Of a DNA stretch of 39,113 nt, positions 23,893 through 35,712 are shown piece after piece. Where the stretch lies: assembly GCA_024278565.1 (NCBI GenBank), contig JAJRSY010000333.1, forward strand, positions 1-39,113, given 5' to 3'. Each line of letters starts with the position of its first letter. Position 1 is the first letter of the stretch. The DNA comes from Bacteroidota bacterium. GTDB taxonomy: Bacteria; Bacteroidota; Bacteroidia; Flavobacteriales; Flavobacteriaceae. A program made the position numbers and the translations under genes. The notes beneath the pieces are model-generated. The model ran no database searches and was not told the origin of the DNA. It worked only from the letters and a program-made list of their open reading frames with translations.

Positions 23893-23921
23893 GCCTTTAC
23901 TCAAAGGCTACGGCTTTTTTT
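23893..23921 (+). terminator. Intrinsic terminator of the deoCD-globin transcript
   Basis: GCCTTT-actc-AAAGGC (23893-23908) is followed within 6 bases by a run of eight T (23914-23921). It overlaps the stop codon of the convergent nrfD-like gene, so the two operons share this short junction. Confidence 0.6.
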
Positions 23922-25134
23922 TGTTATATCGAAGCTTCCCCGTCTCGATCCCGATCGCGGTTTTGGCCAACATGGTAAACACAAAAGCACCCAAGGCCCA
24001 TATACCCATTGTCACCCCTATCTCTATTCCCGTGGGTGTATACTCGGCTATTTTACCATAAGGGCCGGGAATAAACCCAGGTACGATAAGACCAAATCCT
24101 TTCTCGATCCAAATAGCAACGAATAAAATAAAACACGCAAAGAACAGTACTTTAAAATTATTTCTGAGTTTATGGAACGTAAGAATTACCGTAGCCAATA
24201 CATTTAAAGAAATGGCCGTCCATATCCAAGGCAATAAAGCTGTTTTCCCGTCCAATCCGAAGAATAGATAATATGCGCTTTCGCTATGGTGCGTTGGTGC
24301 GTAAAACTCCTTGAACAATTCTGAAATCAACATGATCAAATTTATCTGGGCGGCAACAGTGACTACCAGTGCTATTTTTTTTATGGTTTTATCTTTAATT
24401 ACAAATTCGGTATAGGTCCTTATAACGGCCAATACCAAAATAATCAATGCGGGGCCGGCCGCGAAAGCCGATGCCAAAAAGCGCGGTCCCAAGAGTGCAT
24501 TGTTCCAAAACGGACGTGCTTGTAGGCCTTGGTACAAAAAAGCGGTCACCAAATGAATTCCAACAGCCCAAAATACTGAGATCAATGCCCCTGGAATATA
24601 TACTTTTGGGTTCGGCTCTTTACCTTGATAACGCATAAAAAGAATATAAAACGGAATACTTATATTAATGAACAAATAACCGTTCAATGCAATAACATCC
24701 CAAGCCAACATAGAGTTTGGAAAGTTAAATACACCTATTCCCGGTATCATGTGCCATAAAACAGAAGGTCCTCCCATATCCGCAACTACAAAAGCCAAGC
24801 ACATAATCAATGCAGCTACGGCCAAACCTTCGCCAATGAGCACGGCTTGCTTAAAATCAATATCCTTTAGCACATAAGTAGGCATTACCAACATTACGGC
24901 AGCAGCGGCAACGCCCACCAAAAAGGTGAAATTGGAAATATACAGTCCCCAACTTACCCTGTCGGTCATTCCCGTAACGCTCAGCCCATGTTCTAATTGA
25001 ACTGAATAGCAGTACATGCCCACTAACATGACCAATGTTAAAAAAGCCATCCAGATATGGTATTTTTTTGAACCATGGGTTATGGTCTCCAAACTGTCCT
25101 TTACCAAACTACGCAAAACCCTAAGTCGTCTCAT
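23908..25134 (-). CDS. NrfD/PsrC-type membrane quinol oxidoreductase subunit
   Basis: 408 residues from ATG 25134 (MRRLRVLRSLVKDSLE), preferred over a start 51 bp upstream because the latter adds a hydrophobic stretch before the usual cytoplasmic start. About ten membrane helices. SWGLYISNFTFLVGVAAAAVMLVMPTYV and LAWDVIALNGYLFINISIPFYILF are typical of the NrfD family, which exchanges electrons with the quinone pool without haem. Last gene of the nap operon. Together with the Fe-S gene upstream it probably forms an NrfCD-type quinol dehydrogenase that replaces NapC or NapGH. Confidence 0.88.
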   Translation of the reverse strand: MRRLRVLRSLVKDSLETITHGSKKYHIWMAFLTLVMLVGMYCYSVQLEHGLSVTGMTDRVSWGLYISNFTFLVGVAAAAVMLVMPTYVLKDIDFKQAVLIGEGLAVAALIMCLAFVVADMGGPSVLWHMIPGIGVFNFPNSMLAWDVIALNGYLFINISIPFYILFMRYQGKEPNPKVYIPGALISVFWAVGIHLVTAFLYQGLQARPFWNNALLGPRFLASAFAAGPALIILVLAVIRTYTEFVIKDKTIKKIALVVTVAAQINLIMLISELFKEFYAPTHHSESAYYLFFGLDGKTALLPWIWTAISLNVLATVILTFHKLRNNFKVLFFACFILFVAIWIEKGFGLIVPGFIPGPYGKIAEYTPTGIEIGVTMGIWALGAFVFTMLAKTAIGIETGKLRYNKKKP

Positions 25135-25250
25135 TTTATATGTTGTTATTAACGTGGCGACAATAGACCAATAGACGCTGAACATTAAACCGGCAGGCGT
25201 TAGACCTTTAACCTTTTAACCATTAACCTTTCTTCTTTCTTCATGGTAGT

Positions 25251-26372
25251 TTAGTCCATAAAATACCAGAACTTAGGCTCTGTTCCCAAGTCTTCTTTGA
25301 GCCTAAAAACCTTTTTGTTTTCCAAAACCCAGCGAATGGTACTATCGGGATCTAACAGATTTCCGAAAATACGCGCTCCTGTAGGGCAAGCGTCCACACA
25401 GGCAGGATTTTTGCCCACACGTGACCGTTGTACGCAAAAGGTGCATTTTTCCACGACCCCTTTTTTACGCAACCTATTTCCTAAATAATGTTGGTTTTTG
25501 TTCACTTCCTTCTCTGGCACCTCGGGTGTGCTCCAGTTAAAACGACGGCCATCATAAGGGCAAGCAGCCATACAGTACCTACAGCCTACGCACCAATCAT
25601 AATCTACCACCACCAGGCCATCATCTTCCCGCCATGTTGCCTGTACAGGGCATACCTCTACACAAGGGGGGTTGTCACAGTGAAAACATTGGGTGCCCAT
25701 ATAAAAATGCCCTTCTGCCGGAACCTCATGATAATAATTGTCATCAGCTTCATTGAAGTTGAAACCCTTGCCATCTTTCATTTCGTGAATACGTATATAC
25801 TCCATTTGTGAATTTCTGTCCAGGTTGTTCTCTTCGACACAGGCAGTGACACAGTCCATATACCCTTGGCATTTAGAGATGTTGAACGCATAGCCAAAAA
25901 GAACATCTTCTTCTGCATTTTTTGAAGACATACTAATGTTCTTGCCTGTACGCAATTGGTAGGAGCGAACCAATCTACCCACAGTCGATTCCTTTTCGTC
26001 ACGGGTCATTAATTTATAGTTGCCCTTGAATTGTTCTTCCCAATCAATTTGGGCTTTTTCTTTGGTCTCATCCCCTGCGATCACACTGCAAGATGTACTT
26101 ACGGCGCCAGCACCAATGAGCAAACTTGCGGTTAATTTTTTAAAGGCGGTCCTACGGTCCATCTGTACATCGAAAACCTGTTCAAAACCATCTTTTGTTC
26201 GCTCTTCGGCAATGGTGGCATCTACAGCGGCATCAAAATCCGCATCTCTAAGATGGTCGTTGCCAGAAGAGTTGCACCCTTCGGATGTCTTACCGCACTC
26301 ACAAGTGCCCGGTTCTTGTTTTTTCTTGTTACTAAGGTTTAGAGAAAACCATTTTTTATTGTTATTGTCCAC
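25251..26372 (-). CDS. Four-cluster Fe-S protein, NrfC/PsrB/ActB-like, extended Tat leader
   Basis: 373 residues. Four cluster motifs are spread over C168/C174/C178, C229/C232/C237/C241, C261/C264/C267/C271 and C310/C313/C325/C329. The first motif reads CQGYMDCVTAC: the second cysteine is replaced by Y171, leaving 15 ligands instead of 16, so one [3Fe-4S] centre is plausible, as in ActB. A twin-arginine (R73-R74, DRRTAFKKLTASLLIGAGA) followed by a lipobox-like STSC lies about 70 residues in, after an acidic cytoplasmic leader, which matches the extended Tat signals of Bacteroidetes cofactor proteins. A second cysteine group (C24, C26, C33) is in the leader. Partner of the NrfD-like protein; it should carry electrons between quinol and the cytochromes. 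Confidence 0.88.
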   Translation of the reverse strand: MDNNNKKWFSLNLSNKKKQEPGTCECGKTSEGCNSSGNDHLRDADFDAAVDATIAEERTKDGFEQVFDVQMDRRTAFKKLTASLLIGAGAVSTSCSVIAGDETKEKAQIDWEEQFKGNYKLMTRDEKESTVGRLVRSYQLRTGKNISMSSKNAEEDVLFGYAFNISKCQGYMDCVTACVEENNLDRNSQMEYIRIHEMKDGKGFNFNEADDNYYHEVPAEGHFYMGTQCFHCDNPPCVEVCPVQATWREDDGLVVVDYDWCVGCRYCMAACPYDGRRFNWSTPEVPEKEVNKNQHYLGNRLRKKGVVEKCTFCVQRSRVGKNPACVDACPTGARIFGNLLDPDSTIRWVLENKKVFRLKEDLGTEPKFWYFMD

Positions 26373-26378
26373 ATCTGG

Positions 26379-27002
26379 TTATTTACGTTCTTTAACTTTT
26401 TGGGTATTATACCGTGCCGGCCATTTAGATTTAAAATGTGGTTTATGCGGATTATGGCAATTGACACAGGTCATTGATGCCCGTGGCGGTGCCCAACCGG
26501 CGATCTTCTTGCCATGTGCGCCCCCTTTCCAATCTTCAAATTGCCTAGTATGGCATTGTGCACATAATCGATGACTGGCATTAAAATTTATTTTGGTCCC
26601 TGTTATACTTTTTAAATCATCCATATTTGCACCATCGTGACAAGTTGCACAGTTCATCGTATTCGTATCGGCATGTTCTGTGGCAATCTGCCAATGTGCT
26701 TTTTTTACACTACTTTGCATTTGGTGCAAAGGTTTTGAATGGCATTCTGAGCAGGTATATGATTTTATCTGGCTTTTACGTTCCGGTATCAAGAAGGTAT
26801 GTTCGTTTTCTGTAACTTCAATTGTTTTAATGTCGCCTATATATTTTTCGGATGAAATTGAGGTGCCATGGAAATTTTTGCCCTCAGCTTCGATTTTATC
26901 GGTTATACTATGGTATTCACCTTCTTTATGTTTGCAAGAAAACACCAACAGTACTAAAAAGAAAGCGCAAATAAAATTGATCGCTATATGGTGTCTATTC
27001 AT
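26379..27002 (-). CDS. Tetrahaem cytochrome c lipoprotein
   Basis: 207 residues from ATG 27002; a TTG 15 bases earlier is less likely. The N-terminal hydrophobic stretch ends in the lipobox LVFSC (C23), so it is a lipid-anchored periplasmic protein. Four haem sites: C84-SECH88, C118-ATCH122, C147-AQCH151 and C179-VNCH183, plus several extra histidines that may be distal ligands. I do not recognise a named Nap subunit. It overlaps the NapB-like gene by 8 bases and precedes the Fe-S gene by 6 bp, so it is an obligate part of the operon and probably links the Fe-S protein to NapB/NapA. Confidence 0.85.
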   Translation of the reverse strand: MNRHHIAINFICAFFLVLLVFSCKHKEGEYHSITDKIEAEGKNFHGTSISSEKYIGDIKTIEVTENEHTFLIPERKSQIKSYTCSECHSKPLHQMQSSVKKAHWQIATEHADTNTMNCATCHDGANMDDLKSITGTKINFNASHRLCAQCHTRQFEDWKGGAHGKKIAGWAPPRASMTCVNCHNPHKPHFKSKWPARYNTQKVKERK

Positions 27003-27684
27003 TTTTGTTTCTTTCAAAAATTCCTATATCCATAATTTCTTTGTTGTTCGGCACATGACATTGTCTACAATTGATACGCTCTGGGTGTGACACTCTGATT
27101 TCTTTGGGGGCACTTGGACCGGCATGGCATGACATACAGTTTTCCCTCATCTGTATTTCGTGTGGAATAATAGGGGGGCTTCCGTTCAAGGCATTATTGG
27201 TTCCGGTCAAGGGCATGGGTATTTTTTCGAAATGTGATTCTTTAAACAATGTTTGCGTATGTTGTGGCACATGGCATTGGCGACAATTGATCATTTCAGG
27301 GTGCGGTGCTACAGGGGCATAGGCATTCCATTTATCTACAAAACCACCATTTTGATGACATTTTAAACAACTGTTGCCCCCCATATTCCGTTCCCCTGCC
27401 ACTGGATGCGGAATATATGGTGGTGCACCATGAAATGCCCTATTGTCATAATAGGTGCTCAAGGAGCGTTGATGGTTTATATCCATAGGTACGTTTGCAT
27501 ATTCCAATACAAACCCTGAACGTTGAAAAACCCCGATTTCCGAAGGGATAACAGGAAGTTCTTTCTCTTTCTGTATAGGAATATAGGCTTCCTCCAAGCC
27601 TGTTTGATAGCTGTAGTTCCAAACCACAATGAACACTATGAACAATACTATGAACAATGATATGACAACCAATCGTTTTCCCAT
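26995..27684 (-). CDS. napB: NapB-like cytochrome c with duplicated dihaem unit (tetrahaem)
   Basis: 229 residues. An uncleaved-looking membrane anchor at 5-22 replaces a normal signal peptide. Two tandem copies of the NapB pattern follow: unit 1 (about 86-145) has GAPPYIPH, C106-LKCH110 and C134-RQCHVPQ; unit 2 (about 168-214) has GSPPIIPH, C183-MSCH187 and C206-RQCHVPN. Ordinary NapB has one such unit with two haems. The stop of napA is 3 bp upstream. It should pass electrons to NapA in the periplasm. The call as NapB rests on the PPxIPH...CxQCHVP layout and on position. Confidence 0.82.
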   Translation of the reverse strand: MGKRLVVISLFIVLFIVFIVVWNYSYQTGLEEAYIPIQKEKELPVIPSEIGVFQRSGFVLEYANVPMDINHQRSLSTYYDNRAFHGAPPYIPHPVAGERNMGGNSCLKCHQNGGFVDKWNAYAPVAPHPEMINCRQCHVPQHTQTLFKESHFEKIPMPLTGTNNALNGSPPIIPHEIQMRENCMSCHAGPSAPKEIRVSHPERINCRQCHVPNNKEIMDIGIFERNKNE

Positions 27685-27687
27685 AAA

Positions 27688-30015
27688 CTATACTTTTTCG
27701 ACTTTAACGGCACATTTTTTATAGTCCGGTTCTTTAGAAATAGGGCAAAATGAATCTAAAGTAATTTCATTGATCAGCATATTCTCATCAAAAAAAGGCA
27801 CAAATACCTGCATGGGCGCAGGTATCCCCCTTTGATTTACAGAAGCTGGCAGTATAATCTCACCACGTCTGGTGGTCAGCTTTACCTTGTCTCCTGTTTG
27901 TATGTGCATTCTTTTTGCATCTTCTGGGTTTACCTCTACGTATGCATGGGGCATCGCTTTATGTAATACGGGAATTCTACGTGTCATAGAACCTGTATGC
28001 CAATGTTCTACCACACGGCCGGTACATAACCAATATGGGTACTCTGTATCTGGCGATTCGGCGGCAGGTTCATACGGGCGCTGCCATATAATGGCTCTGC
28101 CATCTGATTTTCCGTAAAAATGAAAGTCTTTTCCATTAGTACAGGCAGGGTCGTATTTAGCATTGAACCGCCATTTGGTGGATTTTCCGTCAACATAGGG
28201 CCACAGCACCCCCGGTTGCGACTTTAATACCTCTAGGGGAGCCATGTTGTGTTTTTTGCCAACATGGTGTTTTCTATATTCATTGTATATTTCCTCAATG
28301 TGGGTTTCCTCTTTATAATGGAACTGTTTTTCGTAGCCCATACGCTTGGCGACTTCGATCAATTGCCAAGTATCACTCATGGCTTCTCCTGGCGGATTGA
28401 CCATTTGTTCAAAATACTGGGTCCTACGCTCAGAATTACCGTACATTCCTTCACGTTCGATCCACATGGCCGATGGCAATATAACATCGGCTATATCGGT
28501 TGTTGGTGTCGGGTATATATCAGAAACCACTATAAACCGTCCTTCTTTTTTTGCACCATCCCTATAGCGTTTTAACTTTGGCATCGTTACCATTGGGTTC
28601 GTCACCTGGATCCACATAAAGCGAATATCGCCCCTGTCCAAGGCCCTGAACATTTCCACCGTATGGTATGTGGGCTTTGGGTCGATATTTTCAACAGGAA
28701 CATTCCATATCTTAGCAGCAAACTCACGGTCTTTTTTGTTCATTACCACACCATGGGGCAGTTTGTGCGTCAATGTACCCACTTCCCTTACGGTACCACA
28801 AGCTGATGGTTGCCCTGTTAAAGAAAACGGACTGTTGCCCGGTGCAGAGATCTTACCTGTCAGTAAGTGAATATTGTATATTAAATTGTTCATCCACGTT
28901 CCCCTAGTGTGCTGATTTGGCCCCATGCACCAAAATGACATCACTTTTTTATTGGGATCGCCATAATAAGCTGCCATATACTTAATGTCCTTTACAGAAA
29001 CGCCCGATATCTTTTCTACTTTTTCTGGTGTATAATCTTCTAAAAAATCTTTATAGGCATTAAAATCTATCTTTTCCGGTTTGTCTTTGAATTTGTAATT
29101 ATCTTTTAGCCCATAGCCCATATTGGTGAGGCCTTTGCTGAAGTTACAATGCCTTTCTACAAATGACCTATTGACCCAGCCATTTTTAATGATCTCATAA
29201 CAAATGGCATTGGCAACTGCCAGGTCTGTTTGGGGAAGAAATAAAATAGACTTATCCGCAGCCATACTGGTCCTAGTAGTCCTGGTAGCGAAATCTATGA
29301 TTTTCACACCTCGTTTCAAACGCTGATCCAACAATCTTGAAAATAGAACAGGGTGCATTTCAGCCATATTGTTTCCCCATAATACAAACACATCGGCATA
29401 ATCTATATCTTCATAGCAGCCCATAGGCTCATCCAGTCCAAATGACGTTAAAAAACCCGTAACTGCGGTAGCCATGCACAAACGCGCATTCGCTTCCACA
29501 TTATTGGTGCCGATGCACCCTTTGAAAAATTTTGAGGCCACATAGCCATCAGGAATCGTCCATTGCCCTGAGCCATAAATAGAAACTGCGTCCTTACCAT
29601 GATCTTTAATGGTTTCCTTCATTTTAGAAGCGATCAGATCCAAAGCTTCTTTCATTGAGGTTTCAACATATTGACCGTTTTTCTTTACCAATGGCTTGGT
29701 CAACCTGTCTTTACCGTACATGGCTATTACGGAATGGTATCCTTTTACACAACATAACCCTTTGTTGACACTGGATTTCGGATCGCCTTTTACCGCAACG
29801 GCCTTTCCGTTTTCCACACCTATTAAAACACCGCAGCCTACACCGCAAAATCTACAAGGAGCTTTTTTCCAATCAAGATCGGCATTTTTTGGCAGGCCCT
29901 CTTCTTGCTCTTCTGCAAATAATATTCCCGGAAACATAGTCGCTGCAGCCGTCATGGCCGACAACATTGCCATTTTTTTAATAAAACTTCGTCTATTGGC
30001 AAGAGAGGTATACAT
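27688..30015 (-). CDS. napA: Periplasmic nitrate reductase catalytic subunit
   Basis: 775 residues from ATG 30015, four bases after the napD stop; a start at 30039 would overlap napD. It reduces nitrate to nitrite with a Mo-bis-MGD cofactor. A Tat leader (NRRSFIKKMAMLSAMTAAA) is followed by the [4Fe-4S] site C54, C57, C61 and C88 or C89 (CRFCGVGC...CCVKGY). The molybdenum ligand is C180 in NARLCMATAV. SGQWTI, EPMGCYEDI, NMAEMHPVLFSR, NQHTRG, LTGKISAPGNSPFSLTGQPSACG and STGRVVEHWHTGSMTRR are strong NapA signatures and separate it from formate dehydrogenase and NasC. It is exported folded, with napD as chaperone. Confidence 0.97.
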   Translation of the reverse strand: MYTSLANRRSFIKKMAMLSAMTAAATMFPGILFAEEQEEGLPKNADLDWKKAPCRFCGVGCGVLIGVENGKAVAVKGDPKSSVNKGLCCVKGYHSVIAMYGKDRLTKPLVKKNGQYVETSMKEALDLIASKMKETIKDHGKDAVSIYGSGQWTIPDGYVASKFFKGCIGTNNVEANARLCMATAVTGFLTSFGLDEPMGCYEDIDYADVFVLWGNNMAEMHPVLFSRLLDQRLKRGVKIIDFATRTTRTSMAADKSILFLPQTDLAVANAICYEIIKNGWVNRSFVERHCNFSKGLTNMGYGLKDNYKFKDKPEKIDFNAYKDFLEDYTPEKVEKISGVSVKDIKYMAAYYGDPNKKVMSFWCMGPNQHTRGTWMNNLIYNIHLLTGKISAPGNSPFSLTGQPSACGTVREVGTLTHKLPHGVVMNKKDREFAAKIWNVPVENIDPKPTYHTVEMFRALDRGDIRFMWIQVTNPMVTMPKLKRYRDGAKKEGRFIVVSDIYPTPTTDIADVILPSAMWIEREGMYGNSERRTQYFEQMVNPPGEAMSDTWQLIEVAKRMGYEKQFHYKEETHIEEIYNEYRKHHVGKKHNMAPLEVLKSQPGVLWPYVDGKSTKWRFNAKYDPACTNGKDFHFYGKSDGRAIIWQRPYEPAAESPDTEYPYWLCTGRVVEHWHTGSMTRRIPVLHKAMPHAYVEVNPEDAKRMHIQTGDKVKLTTRRGEIILPASVNQRGIPAPMQVFVPFFDENMLINEITLDSFCPISKEPDYKKCAVKVEKV

Positions 30016-30019
30016 AATA

Positions 30020-30259
30020 TCAATCGTTTTGTGGTGCATTGAATCCAGAGACCATGGCCAAAAATTTCAGGCTTTCCAAGGTATCTAATTTTTTTTTGAG
30101 TATTTCTTCTTCTATCTGATCTTCGGTATCGGTAACAACAATTACGACATCTTTGTTCTCAGCGGGCATTACCTCACATTGACCAATGGTGGATAGTGCA
30201 TTGACCAGTTCTGCTTTTTTGCCCTTATGGGAATGGGCCAAATAACTTTTAATCGGCAT
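30020..30259 (-). CDS. napD: Tat leader chaperone NapD
   Basis: 79 residues. Ferredoxin-like small fold: IKSYLAHSHKGKKAELVNAL, ..GQCEVMPAENKDVVIVV.., and KLDTLESLKFLAMVSGF fit NapD. It binds the twin-arginine leader of NapA until the cofactor is inserted. First gene of the leftward operon, four bases before napA. The start is only 20 bp from a long perfect inverted repeat, so the leader is unusually tight. Confidence 0.9.
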   Translation of the reverse strand: MPIKSYLAHSHKGKKAELVNALSTIGQCEVMPAENKDVVIVVTDTEDQIEEEILKKKLDTLESLKFLAMVSGFNAPQND

Positions 30260-30769: not shown

Positions 30770-31086
30770 CAAAGGTCGTAGGTTCAAGTTACAAGTGCAA
30801 CATTCAGGGTACTAATTTATGGTTTTCCCCTATAATGGTATCCACTTCCCAATCCTTAAAACACTCTTTGTTGTTGACCACTTGCGGCCGCTCACTTATG
30901 GGTATACGGTCTTTGATGGGCAAATGCCTTCCAATCGGCCGTCTGCGATGTTTTAAACGGCGCCTAAGTTCTTTATAGAAATCACCCCCTGGCACAGGTA
31001 GTTATAATTTTGGACTTGCCAATCTTTGAATATGCCTCTATTTGGTGTCTTTGGTTGTCCGTGAGTTGTTTGTACCTGTAATTCAT
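30770..31086 (-). pseudogene. IS30-family transposase remnant
   Basis: On the minus strand from ATG 31086 the frame gives MNYRYKQLTDNQRHQIEAYS-KIGKSK, the usual N-terminal start of IS30 transposases. It then jumps, with stops, to the middle of the protein: LRRRLKHRRRPIGRHLPIKD, then ISERPQVVNNKECFKDWEVDTIIGENHK (read in 30804-30995), which includes the DWExDTI part of the catalytic core. About 100 residues between the two parts and the whole C-terminus are missing. Clear terminal repeats were not found. The element is dead and old. Confidence 0.8.
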
Positions 31087-31211
31087 CGGCAACAATTTTT
31101 AGAACTTCGAATATCGGAAGCCAGCTCCCGGTATTTGTCCTAAATATTGCACTTACTGATCGAACTTGGCAATCAAGATAATATTATTTGAATAATATGA
31201 CTTTTATCATA

Positions 31212-31241
31212 TTTGGTTCAACCAACAAGGCGTTATATTTG
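31212..31241 (+). promoter_or_regulatory. Promoter of the moeA operon
   Basis: TTTG at 31212-31215 and TATATTTG at 31234-31241 (exact TAnnTTTG), 18 bases apart, form a good Bacteroidetes sigma-A promoter. Transcription would start near 31248. This shows that the frame extending upstream to 31188 is not translated from there and supports ATG 31290. The -7 box sits in an imperfect palindrome around 31233-31253, a possible operator. Confidence 0.65.
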
Positions 31242-31289
31242 CAAAGATATAACGATTTTTGTAAAATAGACACTTACACTCCTTTTAAT

Positions 31290-32462
31290 ATGATCGACGT
31301 TGAAGATGCCATACAGCAAGTTATTGATCATTCTGGGTTTTTAGGAAAATGTACCGTTCATTTGAATAAAGGGTTTGGCCAGTATTTGGCCGAAGATATT
31401 TTCTCCCCTATAAACATGCCCCCTTTCAGGCAATCGGCAATGGATGGGTACGCCCTTAATCTAAAAGAGGGTGCCATTTATGATCTTATAGGTGAAATAA
31501 AGGCGGGTGATTGCCGTCAACACGAATTAAAAACGGGCGGGGCGGTTCGTGTTTTTACAGGAAGCCCCGTACCCGATTCGGCCAATGCCGTTGTTGTACA
31601 AGAAAAAGTGGTTGTCAACGGCCCTACGATCACCATAGAAACGCCCATTAAGCAGGGCGATAATATCCGTCCACTTGGGGAACAGGTCAAAAAAGGAAAC
31701 CTGGCCCTTAAAAAGGGAACAAAATTAACGCCTGCCGCTATTGGTTATTTGGCCTCTCTTGGTATTGCGCAAACCGAAGTATATAAAAAACCTGCCATTG
31801 CAATAGTGGCCACGGGAAACGAGCTCGTTGGGGCCGGTCAAGACCTACCCTATGGCAAAATATACGAAAGCAATGCAACCATGTTGCTCAGTGCTTTAAA
31901 CAGTATTCATTACAACGATGTTGCATTATATAAGGTGGAAGATGATCTCCAAAGTACCCGTAAGATATTGGACAGGGTGATTACCGAGTACGATGTTGTA
32001 ATAATCACCGGGGGCATTTCTGTAGGCGAATACGATTTTGTTGGGAAAGCACTTCAAGAATTGGCCGTGCAACAAATTTTCCACAAGGTAAGGCAGAAAC
32101 CGGGGAAGCCTCTTTTTTTTGGAAAAAAAGAGGGCACTTCCATTTTTGCACTTCCGGGAAATCCGGCCGCAGCTTTGACTTGTTTTTATGTCTATGTGTA
32201 CCCTGCACTACAAAAAATGTCGGGCGATCCCGATCCCTTTTTATACAAAACAGTAATGAGATCAGCTTCGGCCCATATCAAAAAAGGAGATAGGGCACAG
32301 TTTTTAAAAGCTAGGGCAACCCATGATAAAGCAATCATTCTAGAAGGCCAAAGTTCTGCGATGCTACAGACCTTTGCATTGGCAAACGCCTTGTTGTACG
32401 TACCTATGGAAGGGGGAGATGTTCATATAGGTGATGTTGTGGAAGTACTGCACCTTCCGTAA
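31290..32462 (+). CDS. moeA: Molybdopterin molybdenumtransferase MoeA
   Basis: 390 residues from ATG 31290 (MIDVEDAIQQVIDH). It inserts molybdate into adenylylated molybdopterin. Family marks are SPINMPPFRQSAMDGYAL (domain I), VVVQEKV, VATGNELV, KIYESNATML, IITGGISVGEYDFV (MoCF domain) and KPGKPLFFG...FALPGNPAAALTCF. First gene of the cofactor operon. It stands opposite the nap operon, whose NapA needs the product. Confidence 0.95.
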   Translation: MIDVEDAIQQVIDHSGFLGKCTVHLNKGFGQYLAEDIFSPINMPPFRQSAMDGYALNLKEGAIYDLIGEIKAGDCRQHELKTGGAVRVFTGSPVPDSANAVVVQEKVVVNGPTITIETPIKQGDNIRPLGEQVKKGNLALKKGTKLTPAAIGYLASLGIAQTEVYKKPAIAIVATGNELVGAGQDLPYGKIYESNATMLLSALNSIHYNDVALYKVEDDLQSTRKILDRVITEYDVVIITGGISVGEYDFVGKALQELAVQQIFHKVRQKPGKPLFFGKKEGTSIFALPGNPAAALTCFYVYVYPALQKMSGDPDPFLYKTVMRSASAHIKKGDRAQFLKARATHDKAIILEGQSSAMLQTFALANALLYVPMEGGDVHIGDVVEVLHLP

Positions 32463-32472
32463 AGCACAGTGT

Positions 32473-32820
32473 ATGGACTATAAAATAAAAAGTAGGATTT
32501 GGATCGAGGCAGATGGCAAGGTCCTATTGGGAGAGGGAAGGGTAGATCTATTGAAGGCAATAGAAAAAACCGGGTCTTTGTCCAAAGCCGCCAAGGCATT
32601 GAAAATGTCTTATAAAAAAGCTTGGATCCTTATTGATGCCGTAAACAAATCTGCCAAAGAACCTGTGGTCATCTGCAGTGTTGGTGGTATAAATGGTGGA
32701 GGGGCAGAGGTAACGCCCTATGGTAGGTCCCTGATCGGGGCTTTTGACAAGATCAACAAAAATTGCTGGAACTATTTGGATACGCAAGTAATAAAAATTA
32801 ATGAACCCCATAGGAATTGA
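32473..32820 (+). CDS. ModE-like N-terminal winged-helix DNA-binding protein
   Basis: 115 residues: KSRIWIEADGKVLLGEGRVDLLKAIEKTGSLSKAAKALKMSYKKAWILIDAVNK is the ModE N-terminal winged helix (LysR-type HTH). ...GGAEVTPYGRSLIGAFD follows as in the family. The molybdate-binding TOBE domains of full ModE are absent, so this short form either does not sense molybdate itself or does so in another way. It starts 10 bp after moeA. A role in regulating the Mo genes is inference. Confidence 0.88.
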   Translation: MDYKIKSRIWIEADGKVLLGEGRVDLLKAIEKTGSLSKAAKALKMSYKKAWILIDAVNKSAKEPVVICSVGGINGGGAEVTPYGRSLIGAFDKINKNCWNYLDTQVIKINEPHRN

Positions 32821-32896
32821 AGAGATTTCCGTAAATGACCTAGCGGGCATTATGGGCTCTTCCACTAAAAAATGTGAAGATGCAGTTAAAGATTAA
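32801..32896 (+). CDS. Possible 31-residue ORF overlapping moaD start
   Basis: ATG 32801 to TAA 32896 reads MNPIGIEEISVNDLAGIMGS then STKKCEDAVKD. It overlaps the end of the ModE-like gene by 20 bases and the start of moaD by 17. No family is recognised. It may be a leader peptide coupling the two genes, a relic of a longer ModE-like C-terminus, or chance. Confidence 0.2.
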   Translation: MNPIGIEEISVNDLAGIMGSSTKKCEDAVKD

Positions 32897-33113
32897 ATAT
32901 TTTGGTATGCTGGCGGAAGTCGCACAATGCAGGGAGGAAGATCTTCATTGCAATGAAGTTACCGTTTACGGATTGCTCAAGGTATTGTACGGTAAATATC
33001 CAAAGTTAAAAGAAAAGAACTTTCAGATAGCCCAAAATAACGAGCTGCTTTCCCCCAAGGCCAAACTAACAACAGGTGAGATAGCGTTACTGCCCCCTTT
33101 TGCCGGTGGGTAA
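32880..33113 (+). CDS. moaD: Molybdopterin synthase sulfur carrier subunit MoaD
   Basis: 77 residues from ATG 32880 (MQLKIKYFGMLAEVAQ); a GTG two codons before is less likely. Ubiquitin-like beta-grasp fold with the essential C-terminal Gly-Gly (LLPPFAGG), which is thiocarboxylated and donates sulfur in molybdopterin synthase together with MoaE. The activating enzyme MoeB is not in the window. Confidence 0.93.
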   Translation: MQLKIKYFGMLAEVAQCREEDLHCNEVTVYGLLKVLYGKYPKLKEKNFQIAQNNELLSPKAKLTTGEIALLPPFAGG

Positions 33114-33276
33114 TACGGTAGAAAAGACAAAATACCGCTACGCTGTAAAAAACTAGACAAAAGACCGATTTGCAACAAATTGATGATCAATTACATGAAA
33201 AAATATGGCAAATGCCCCAACAAATATGGGACCGAACAGATTTTAGATAAACCTTTACCGGACAACAATGTAGAAC

Positions 33277-33720
33277 ATGAAAGAACATAAGCACAAAGAT
33301 GTATTTAAACAAGGTGCCATCACACCCGTATTTATAGGAGATTGCATTGCGAAACACCAATCTAAAACGACCGTGGGCGCCCATAACATATTTTTGGGGC
33401 AGGTTCGTGCAGACAAGATTGACGGTAAAACCGTTTCAACCATAGAATATACGGCCTATGATGATATGGCAAATAAAAAATTCAATGCTATTCGAGAAGC
33501 AGCTTTTACAAAATTCAATTTAACATGTATGCATATTTACCATAGTTTGGGCAAAGTACGTATTGGCGAAATATGCTTGTTCGTCTTTGTGTCCTCACCT
33601 CGGCGAAAAGAAGTGTTTGAAGCCCTGGAATTTGTTGTCGAGGAAATAAAGGCGACCGTACCCGTTTTTGGAAAGGAAATTTTTGAAGACACCTCGCACC
33701 GATGGAAAGTGAATTCTTAA
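33277..33720 (+). CDS. moaE: Molybdopterin synthase catalytic subunit MoaE
   Basis: 147 residues. VGAHNIFLGQVRADKIDGKTV, IEYTAYDDMA, IYHSLGKVRIGEICLFVFVSSPRR and VEEIKATVPVFGKEIFED match MoaE. It converts cyclic pyranopterin monophosphate to molybdopterin with sulfur from MoaD; the catalytic lysine lies in the EEIKATVPVFGKE segment. The 163-bp gap after moaD holds only a 35-codon frame (33183-33290) that runs into moaE and is not supported. Confidence 0.93.
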   Translation: MKEHKHKDVFKQGAITPVFIGDCIAKHQSKTTVGAHNIFLGQVRADKIDGKTVSTIEYTAYDDMANKKFNAIREAAFTKFNLTCMHIYHSLGKVRIGEICLFVFVSSPRRKEVFEALEFVVEEIKATVPVFGKEIFEDTSHRWKVNS

Positions 33721-33793
33721 AATATATCCGCCGGTTTAATAATAAACCCTCGGTTAAACATAGTTGAACAATTATACGAACCAAAGTACAACA

Positions 33794-34708
33794 ATGATCA
33801 ACATAACACATAAAACAAATACCCTGAGAACCGCAACCGCCCAAGCGATACTAAAGGTGGGCAAACCCGAGACCATAGTTGCGATCCAAAATAATACCGT
33901 TCCTAAAGGTGATGTCTTTGCAATGAGCAAAGCTGCCGGGTTGCTCGGTGTAAAAAAAACCCCGGACATACTGCCGGACTGTCACCCACTACCCATAGAA
34001 TATACAGGTATCGAGTACAAGATCACCAAGTTAGAAATCACGGTCCTCTGTACGGTCAAGACCATTTACAAGACAGGTGTCGAGGTCGAGGCCATGCACG
34101 GGGCAAGTGTGGTGGCCTTGAACATGTACGATATGTTAAAGCCCATAGACAAAGGTATTGAGATCCATCATATTAAATTATTGGAAAAAAAAGGAGGAAA
34201 ATCTGATTTTAAGGATACGTTCCGAAAAGATATTACAGCAGCTGTTGTTGTATGTTCAGATAGCATTTCCGCAGGCCAAAAAGAAGATAGGGCAGGAAAA
34301 AAAATCATTGAAAAGCTTAAAGAGAGTGATGTCGTTATTTCTGAATACTGTATTATTCCCGATGAAACGGAAATCATACGATCCAAGGTAATGGCATACC
34401 AACAAGAGGGCATAGATCTTATAATTTTCACAGGGGGAACAGGCTTATCAAAACGCGATGTCACCACTGAAGCCCTCGAACCACTATTGGACAGAAGAAT
34501 ACCGGGAATCGAAGAGGCCATTCGCAGTTACGGACAAAACAGAACACCGTACTCAATGCTGTCAAGGAGCATTGCCGGAACATTTAAGGGTAGTCTGGTT
34601 TTGGCATTGCCAGGCTCCACCAACGGGGCAAAAGAATCTATGGATGCCATTTTTCCGGCGATATTGCACATTTTTAGAATATTCAAAGGCGCAAGACACG
34701 ACTCATGA
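33794..34708 (+). CDS. moaCB: Bifunctional MoaC-MoaB(MogA-like) fusion
   Basis: 304 residues from ATG 33794. Residues about 1-150 are MoaC, which makes cyclic pyranopterin monophosphate: KGDVFAMSKAAGLLGVKKT, DCHPLPIEYTGIEY, GVEVEAMHGASVVALNMYDMLK with the catalytic KxxxK region. Residues about 160-300 are a MoaB/MogA domain that adenylylates molybdopterin: AAVVVCSDSISAGQKEDRAG, IIFTGGTGLSKRDVT, LPGSTNGAKESMDA. The fusion is known from Bacteroidetes and puts two non-consecutive steps on one chain. Its last 4 bases overlap the moaA start. Confidence 0.93.
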   Translation: MINITHKTNTLRTATAQAILKVGKPETIVAIQNNTVPKGDVFAMSKAAGLLGVKKTPDILPDCHPLPIEYTGIEYKITKLEITVLCTVKTIYKTGVEVEAMHGASVVALNMYDMLKPIDKGIEIHHIKLLEKKGGKSDFKDTFRKDITAAVVVCSDSISAGQKEDRAGKKIIEKLKESDVVISEYCIIPDETEIIRSKVMAYQQEGIDLIIFTGGTGLSKRDVTTEALEPLLDRRIPGIEEAIRSYGQNRTPYSMLSRSIAGTFKGSLVLALPGSTNGAKESMDAIFPAILHIFRIFKGARHDS

Positions 34709-35712
34709 ACAAAGAACAACATCTATTGACCGATACTTTTGGAAGACAACATAACTATCTTCGTATCTCACTTACCGAGCGCTGTAATTTACGCTGCACC
34801 TATTGTATGCCCGAGGAAGGGATTGCACTTTCACCCAAATCGCACATTATGTCGTTCGATGAGGTTTACAGCATCGCAAAAATATTTGTGGACCACGGGG
34901 TCACCAAAATAAGGCTTACCGGTGGTGAGCCTATGGTCCGCAAAGATATTCCCGTGATTTTAAAACAATTGGCATCTTTGCCCGTTGAACTGTCACTTTC
35001 TACCAACGGAATCAATATTGATAGGTTTATCGATACTCTTAAGGCAAACGATATTCACAATATAAACGTGAGCTTAGACTCTTTGGATGCTGAAAAATTT
35101 CATCAAATTACCCGAAGAAATTATTTTGAAAAAGTATATAACAACATTTTGCTCTTGGCAACCAATGGGTTTAAGGTGAAGATAAATACCGTTTTGATAA
35201 AAAATTTCAATGACAATGAAATAGTCGATTTCATCGAGCTTACCAAAAATATTCCCGTCACCATTAGATTTATCGAGTTCATGCCATTTGATGGCAATAA
35301 GTGGGACTTAAAGAGAATGATCTCTTATCAAGAGATCATGAACACCGTTTATAGGGTTTTTTCGCAAAATCGTGTCCATCGCTTGTTGGACGCTCCCAAT
35401 GACACCTCTAAAAATTACAAAATAGAAGGCTATAAGGGCAGCTTTGCCGTTATCAGTTCAGTTACCTCCCCGTTTTGTGGCTCCTGTAACAGATTGCGGT
35501 TAACGGCCAACGGCCAACTCAAAAATTGTCTGTTCTCGGCCTCGGAATCTGATTTGCTCACCGCCCTTCGCAAAGGGGAAAATATAGAACCCGTCATACA
35601 AAAAGCAGTACAGGGCAAACTTGGAATACGGGGTGGAATGGATACTTTAGAGAAATTAAAGACACCTCGCTTGCACACAAAGAACAGAAGTATGACCACC
35701 ATCGGGGGCTGA
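34705..35712 (+). CDS. moaA: GTP 3',8-cyclase MoaA
   Basis: 335 residues. Radical SAM enzyme that starts molybdenum cofactor synthesis from GTP. N-terminal [4Fe-4S] ligands C27, C31, C34 (CNLRCTYC), TGGEPMVRKD, and the C-terminal cluster C258, C261, C275 (CGSCN...NC). It ends with the conserved Gly-Gly (MTTIGG), which acts in the reaction. Its ATG overlaps the moaCB stop by 4 bases. Last gene of the Moco operon; it converges with the next gene, only 12 bp apart. Confidence 0.96.
   Translation: MNKEQHLLTDTFGRQHNYLRISLTERCNLRCTYCMPEEGIALSPKSHIMSFDEVYSIAKIFVDHGVTKIRLTGGEPMVRKDIPVILKQLASLPVELSLSTNGINIDRFIDTLKANDIHNINVSLDSLDAEKFHQITRRNYFEKVYNNILLLATNGFKVKINTVLIKNFNDNEIVDFIELTKNIPVTIRFIEFMPFDGNKWDLKRMISYQEIMNTVYRVFSQNRVHRLLDAPNDTSKNYKIEGYKGSFAVISSVTSPFCGSCNRLRLTANGQLKNCLFSASESDLLTALRKGENIEPVIQKAVQGKLGIRGGMDTLEKLKTPRLHTKNRSMTTIGG

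Follow-up and report, generated by a model that had tools for sequence, protein, structure and literature searches.

A gene in the 39,113-nucleotide stretch of flavobacterial DNA analysed here (contig JAJRSY010000333.1, hereafter the window) encodes a NapB protein whose dihaem unit has been duplicated in tandem within a single polypeptide. This tetrahaem protein, which we term NapB(x2), is encoded on the minus strand at 26995..27684 (229 amino acids). It probably functions as a membrane-anchored four-haem NapB that serves as the electron donor of NapA and is itself fed from menaquinol through a DsrP/DsrO-like module and a tetrahaem lipoprotein.

NapB(x2) is laid out as two PPxIPH...CxxCH...HP...CRQCH units. 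Unit 1 (27250..27504, minus strand; residues 61-145) contains PPYIPH at residues 88-93, CLKCH at 106-110, H128 and CRQCH at 134-138. Unit 2 (26998..27249, minus strand; residues 146-229) contains PPIIPH at 170-175, CMSCH at 183-187, H200 and CRQCH at 206-210, and the CxxCH motifs of the protein thus begin at residues 106, 134, 183 and 206. Local alignment of half 1 with half 2 returned a BLOSUM62 score of 123, compared with a mean of 39.9 (SD 7.6) and a maximum of 74 over 5000 shuffles in which the second half was permuted with its CxxCH residues held fixed. As no shuffle approached the observed score, the repeat is real and extends beyond the shared haem motifs; a chance likeness among CxxCH proteins was ruled out by the same motif-keeping shuffles. 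Profile-profile comparison of the two halves using hhalign gave a probability of 98.9%.

Each half was recognisable as NapB in its own right. Against Pfam, the whole protein matched the NapB family (PF03892) with 45.6 bits (cut-off 25.1). NapB was likewise the best match for half 1 alone (E 1.2e-7, 32.3 bits) and for half 2 alone (E 4.1e-5), the latter scoring 24.1 bits and falling slightly below the cut-off of 25.1. When compared by hhalign with an alignment of 13 canonical NapB sequences taken from plasmid records, half 1 and half 2 gave probabilities of 97.8% and 98.2%, respectively. The neighbouring tetrahaem cytochrome, included as a control possessing four CxxCH motifs, gave 0.0% against NapB, 0.0% against each half and 31.8% against whole NapB(x2). 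Since this control scores 0.0% against NapB, hhalign is not merely matching haem sites. A search of PDB sequences with the family profile placed 1ogy_B, the NapB of Cereibacter sphaeroides, at the top (E 3e-4), and the NapB motif order is kept in both halves, with PPxIPH preceding the first CxxCH and CxQCHVP at the second. The original prediction of a tandem-duplicated NapB dihaem unit is borne out by the hhalign comparison of the halves, the shuffles and the match of both halves to NapB; the outcome that would have told against it, in which one half only scored as NapB, did not occur. A NapC-type identity was also considered and rejected, with no significant match of NapB(x2) to Cytochrom_NNT (PF03264) and half 2 alone reaching just E 0.06. 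A PHROGs search returned no match.

We considered whether the protein might instead be a tetrahaem cytochrome of the NapM or c7/c3 type, with its resemblance to NapB due to convergence. In favour of this are weak hits in Pfam, to Cytochrome_C7 at 28.8 bits and to c3-like families, and the existence in Desulfovibrio and Caldithrix of NapM, a tetrahaem protein proposed to donate electrons to NapA (PMC5317091). Furthermore, the relative of NapB(x2) on a plasmid of Flammeovirga kamogawensis is publicly annotated as a 'cytochrome c3 family protein'. Homologues named to another cytochrome family had been foreseen as an argument against the NapB assignment; such a name is indeed found, but it is unspecific and finds no backing in the profile tests. 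With NapB the top Pfam family for each half, hhalign probabilities to NapB near 98% for both halves and 0 for the neighbouring tetrahaem protein, and the PPxIPH and CxQCHVP motifs in order, we regard convergence as very unlikely. Judged by its sequence and its genetic neighbour, NapB(x2) is a NapB by descent and partner. Standard NapB is a dihaem protein of about 16 kDa that is soluble once its signal peptide has been removed. Because NapB(x2) departs from the dihaem and soluble features, we file it as a variant of NapB rather than a standard member.

Across 20 homologues, exactly eight histidines of NapB(x2) are conserved without exception, namely those of the four CxxCH motifs together with H93, H128, H175 and H200. 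This is the number needed for four bis-histidine haems, in a presumed pairing of haems and histidines. Four CxxCH motifs were present in all 30 homologues for which DNA was retrieved, and both PPx[IV]PH patterns were exact in 29 of these. The expectation of four haems therefore held, resting on the four CxxCH motifs and the eight invariant histidines. In each unit, the distal histidine of the second CxxCH lies approximately 6 residues upstream of the motif, compared with approximately 20 in NapB; given this shorter spacing, the haem geometry may differ from that of NapB.

The N-terminus of NapB(x2) is probably an uncleaved signal anchor. Following a short basic start, residues 5-23 (27616..27672, minus strand) form a hydrophobic segment with a Kyte-Doolittle mean of 3.04 over 19 residues. 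An A-x-A signal-peptidase motif is absent from NapB(x2) and from 20 of 20 homologues, whereas about half of the 13 canonical NapBs possess one and most are less hydrophobic at the N-terminus. AlphaFold, supplied with a 16-sequence alignment, predicted a helix spanning residues 2-31 with block-mean pLDDT values of 73-94 over residues 1-30; for the protein overall the model (mean pLDDT 39.2, pTM 0.21) is reliable for this first helix only. It could be argued that the segment is cleaved as a signal peptide to release a soluble periplasmic shuttle like ordinary NapB, given that NapB is normally soluble and that signal peptides likewise begin with a few basic residues ahead of a hydrophobic core. 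We consider this unlikely in view of the hydropathy (2.0-3.0 over 19 residues), the missing A-x-A in all 20 homologues and the prediction of one helix over residues 2-31 that runs past the expected cleavage region. The membrane anchor proposed at the outset is thus upheld as probable by the hydropathy, the lack of A-x-A and the predicted helix.

NapB(x2) is encoded within a same-strand cluster of six genes in the order napD-napA-napB(x2)-tetrahaem lipoprotein-dsrO-like-dsrP/NrfD-like, in which the napD-napA, napA-napB and napB-cytochrome joints are overlaps or gaps of a few bases. The cluster opens with a napD-like chaperone gene (30020..30259, minus strand; 79 amino acids), which keeps this position with respect to napA in 15 homologous loci whose flanks are complete, followed by the gene for the catalytic subunit NapA (27688..30039, minus strand; 783 amino acids), which bears a twin-arginine motif. 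Downstream of napB(x2) lies the gene for a second tetrahaem cytochrome (26379..27017, minus strand), a probable lipoprotein with an LVFSC lipobox-like sequence and four CxxCH motifs. Its start is probably the ATG at 27002, and it is unrelated to NapB by hhalign. Next is a 373-residue DsrO-like 4Fe-4S protein (25251..26372, minus strand) with the twin-arginine-like motif RRTAFKK, which scores 199.3 bits against the NCBIfam DsrO model, just below the cut-off of 200; its PDB matches are ArrB-like, NrfC/PsrB-like and ACIII-B chains. The last gene encodes a DsrP/NrfD-type integral membrane quinone-binding subunit of 425 residues (23908..25185, minus strand), with matches to NCBIfam DsrP (419.6 bits; cut-off 350), Pfam NrfD (5.7e-33) and, in the PDB, ACIII subunit C.

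All 18 flavobacterial loci examined show this gene order over the stretch that each one covers, and Flammeovirga has it too. DsrM, DsrK and the triheme DsrJ were found neither among the cluster ORFs (by eye) nor in the annotated Flammeovirga cluster, and the cytochrome encoded next to napB(x2) has four CxxCH motifs rather than the three haems of DsrJ. In the plasmid cluster of F. kamogawensis, NapA is annotated as 'molybdopterin-dependent oxidoreductase' and the chaperone as NapD; the RefSeq name of the dsrP-like counterpart, 'sulfate reduction electron transfer complex DsrMKJOP subunit DsrP', is misleading in this context. A 2026 review lists the nap operon types napEDABC, napDAGHB, napCMADGH and napAGHBFLD (PMC13223375), and the cluster containing NapB(x2) fits none of these four. 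Elsewhere in the window, a molybdenum-cofactor gene group (31188-35712) adjoins the nap operon, and a single ORF within this group (33764-34708) appears to fuse MoaC-like and MoaB/Mog-like halves. A 63-residue ORF between napD and moeA (30804-30995, minus strand) resembles the remnant of an IS30-type transposase. All three observations were made by eye.

The NapA of the window scores 936.3 bits against the equivalog model TIGR01706 (cut-off 930.55) and 976.1 against PRK13532 (cut-off 904). It retains the lysine and tyrosine of the VKGY motif (Lys99 and Tyr101). The equivalent tyrosine, Tyr58 in Cereibacter, is reported to be conserved in heterodimeric NapA and to lie near haem II of NapB (PMC13223375), and Desulfovibrio NapA, which is monomeric and belongs to a system without NapB, has a serine at this position. 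The Cereibacter interface residues E47 and S772 are not kept, being S and N here, which tells against NapB(x2) as the relay to NapA, though E. coli NapA is also without them. Relative to the E. coli, Cereibacter and Cupriavidus proteins, a segment of approximately 45 residues (chain positions ~540-600) is missing around residues 571-584 of the window NapA; Desulfovibrio NapA aligns through this region without the insert.

Some variation in napA was seen among the relatives. In-frame stop codons occur in a few Flavobacteriaceae (locus L007, 5671-7998; genomes G652 and G476); Tamlana sp. 2_MG-2023 has just one, a TAA. These stops suggest sporadic decay of the pathway or sequencing error. Across loci L002-L016, flavobacterial NapA falls into two classes of identity to the window protein, ~85-90% and 68-77%, and NapB(x2) spans 56-71%; the two NapA classes, set against the steady identity of NapB(x2), hint that napA has been exchanged between lineages.

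In the genomes searched, the distribution of NapB(x2) follows that of NapA exactly. Among 301 Flavobacteriaceae genomes, near-full-length matches to the NapB(x2) profile were found in 56, with one further weak partial match, and NapA was found in the identical set of 56. The two genes are same-strand neighbours in 55 of these and lie on different contigs in the remaining genome. In a wider set of 396 Bacteroidota genomes, NapA and full-length NapB(x2) matches shared the same 4 genomes, and a NapB family search of this set found no two-haem or other full NapB; in two of the genomes (loci L027 and L029), frames of ~680 residues match NapB in part, at profile positions ~65-122. NapC/NirT is absent from 4 single-contig genomes that possess the system and from the window's own genome (85% complete). 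Similarly, NapH did not exceed its cut-off in any of 11 genomes with the system; all NapH-like matches were far below it, the one within the window being a CcoG-like ORF.

Multihaem carriers often serve several clients, and NapB(x2) might accordingly be imagined as a shared electron hub in the periplasm that supplies further reductases as well, such as those for nitrite or nitrous oxide. NrfA is indeed present in 3 of the 11 genomes with the system. The remaining 8 are without NrfA, however, and NapB(x2) is strictly one-to-one with NapA, such that we think a hub improbable.

A tree of the halves grouped the first halves together (96/99) and separated all 40 halves from canonical NapB (99/99); the second halves formed a group in the majority of bootstrap trees. 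Because the alignment has few columns, only these deep groups were used. As first and second halves form separate groups, a single duplication preceding the split of Flavobacteriaceae and Flammeovirga is most likely. This long divergence invites the idea of a division of labour, in which one unit docks NapA and the other docks, or stores electrons for, the tetrahaem lipoprotein or the DsrO-like protein, the benefit being a second interface or added electron capacity rather than length. In keeping with this, the two groups of halves parted before the sequences of Flavobacteriaceae and Flammeovirga did, the operon already supplies another tetrahaem cytochrome, and the linkers of the halves are unlike one another: NGGxVxKFxAYxPV in half 1 and a conserved segment of the AGPSAPxEIR type in half 2. 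On the other hand, all ligand histidines and NapB-like motifs are kept in both halves. Since the ligands persist, neither half has lost its redox function, although this excludes a dead half only and does not separate a wire from a division of labour. We hold the division of labour to be a serious possibility, at somewhat less than even chances.

For the preferred reading of NapB(x2) as an anchored electron donor of NapA, the attachment to the membrane in the living cell and the path of the electrons, including the sequence of its steps, are inferred by analogy with NapAB, DsrJOP and alternative complex III (ACIII). An ancestral NapB dihaem unit would have doubled in tandem and its cleavable signal peptide would have become an uncleaved membrane anchor, yielding a four-haem bis-histidine protein tethered to the inner membrane on its periplasmic side. 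Electrons from menaquinol would enter the DsrP/NrfD-like subunit and pass via the DsrO-like clusters and the tetrahaem lipoprotein to NapB(x2), and thence to the 4Fe-4S cluster of NapA, the Mo cofactor and nitrate. The DsrP/NrfD-like subunit, the DsrO-like protein and the tetrahaem lipoprotein would thereby take the place of NapC and NapGH. Within NapAB, the pair of NapB haems is stacked at a distance of ~10 Å and leads to NapA (PMC13223375); two NapB units in series could lengthen the electron path. The weakest step is the assumption that the four haems of NapB(x2) would form one continuous wire. A single chain spanning the distance from the membrane to NapA, as originally envisaged, is the less likely arrangement, given that the operon also encodes the tetrahaem cytochrome and the Fe-S protein, both of them redox proteins; any wire more likely comprises several proteins. 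The strains in which nitrate reduction was observed did not include two Flavobacteriaceae reported to possess both Nap subunits (PMC11165706). We count these two, whose NapB may be of another kind, against a relay to NapA.

A bolder extension is that the six genes specify one membrane-bound, energy-conserving menaquinol:nitrate oxidoreductase, rendering periplasmic nitrate reduction electrogenic in Bacteroidota. NrfD-like subunits have been proposed to translocate ions (PMC8076601), and no energy is considered to be conserved when NapC or NapGH feeds Nap (PMC6195509). We advance this idea tentatively and consider it rather doubtful; if true, it would make Nap, normally regarded as non-conserving, electrogenic in this phylum. 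The cluster also offers a testable case of a periplasmic nitrate reductase fed without NapC or NapGH, possibly conserving energy via an NrfD-type subunit.

In the Flavobacteriaceae, a group dominant in the sea, this cluster appears to be the usual arrangement of Nap. Since public annotation can hide it, as the Flammeovirga labels illustrate, flavobacterial nitrate respiration may be under-counted. NapB(x2) itself is apparently undescribed so far within the literature searched, which held no relevant account of a tetrahaem, duplicated or fused NapB; most subscription journals lay outside this scope, and an earlier description is possible.

Comparison with known systems places NapB(x2) closest to NapB itself (PF03892; 1ogy_B, 3ml1_B, 1jni_A). 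Each half shares the order of PPxIPH, CxxCH and CxQCHVP, the gene adjoins napA and the count of conserved histidines fits bis-histidine haems. NapB(x2) differs in having two units per chain, four haems, a probable uncleaved membrane anchor, a shorter spacing of the second distal histidine to its CxxCH and no NapC or NapGH partner genes. Compared by description, the NapM of napCMADGH clusters (Desulfovibrio desulfuricans and Caldithrix abyssi) also has four haems and is a proposed NapA donor. NapM systems are, however, without napB (PMC5317091) and contain napGH, napC being present in some and missing in others, whereas NapB(x2) combines a duplicated NapB with a DsrOP-type module. That module resembles DsrJOP of the DsrMKJOP complex and alternative complex III (ActABC), in which an NrfD-family membrane subunit, a multi-cluster Fe-S subunit and a multihaem c-type cytochrome are likewise encoded per operon. 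In contrast to these, the nap cluster has neither DsrM nor DsrK, its cytochrome has four haems rather than three and it is linked to NapA. A review of the NrfD family makes no mention of Nap and places DsrP1 and DsrP2 chiefly in sulfate reducers and sulfur oxidisers rather than in Bacteroidetes (PMC8076601). Finally, NrfABCD similarly employs an Fe-S subunit, an NrfD-type membrane subunit and a multihaem cytochrome to feed a periplasmic reductase; the nap cluster differs in ending in NapA rather than NrfA and in drawing its cytochrome from NapB rather than NrfB.
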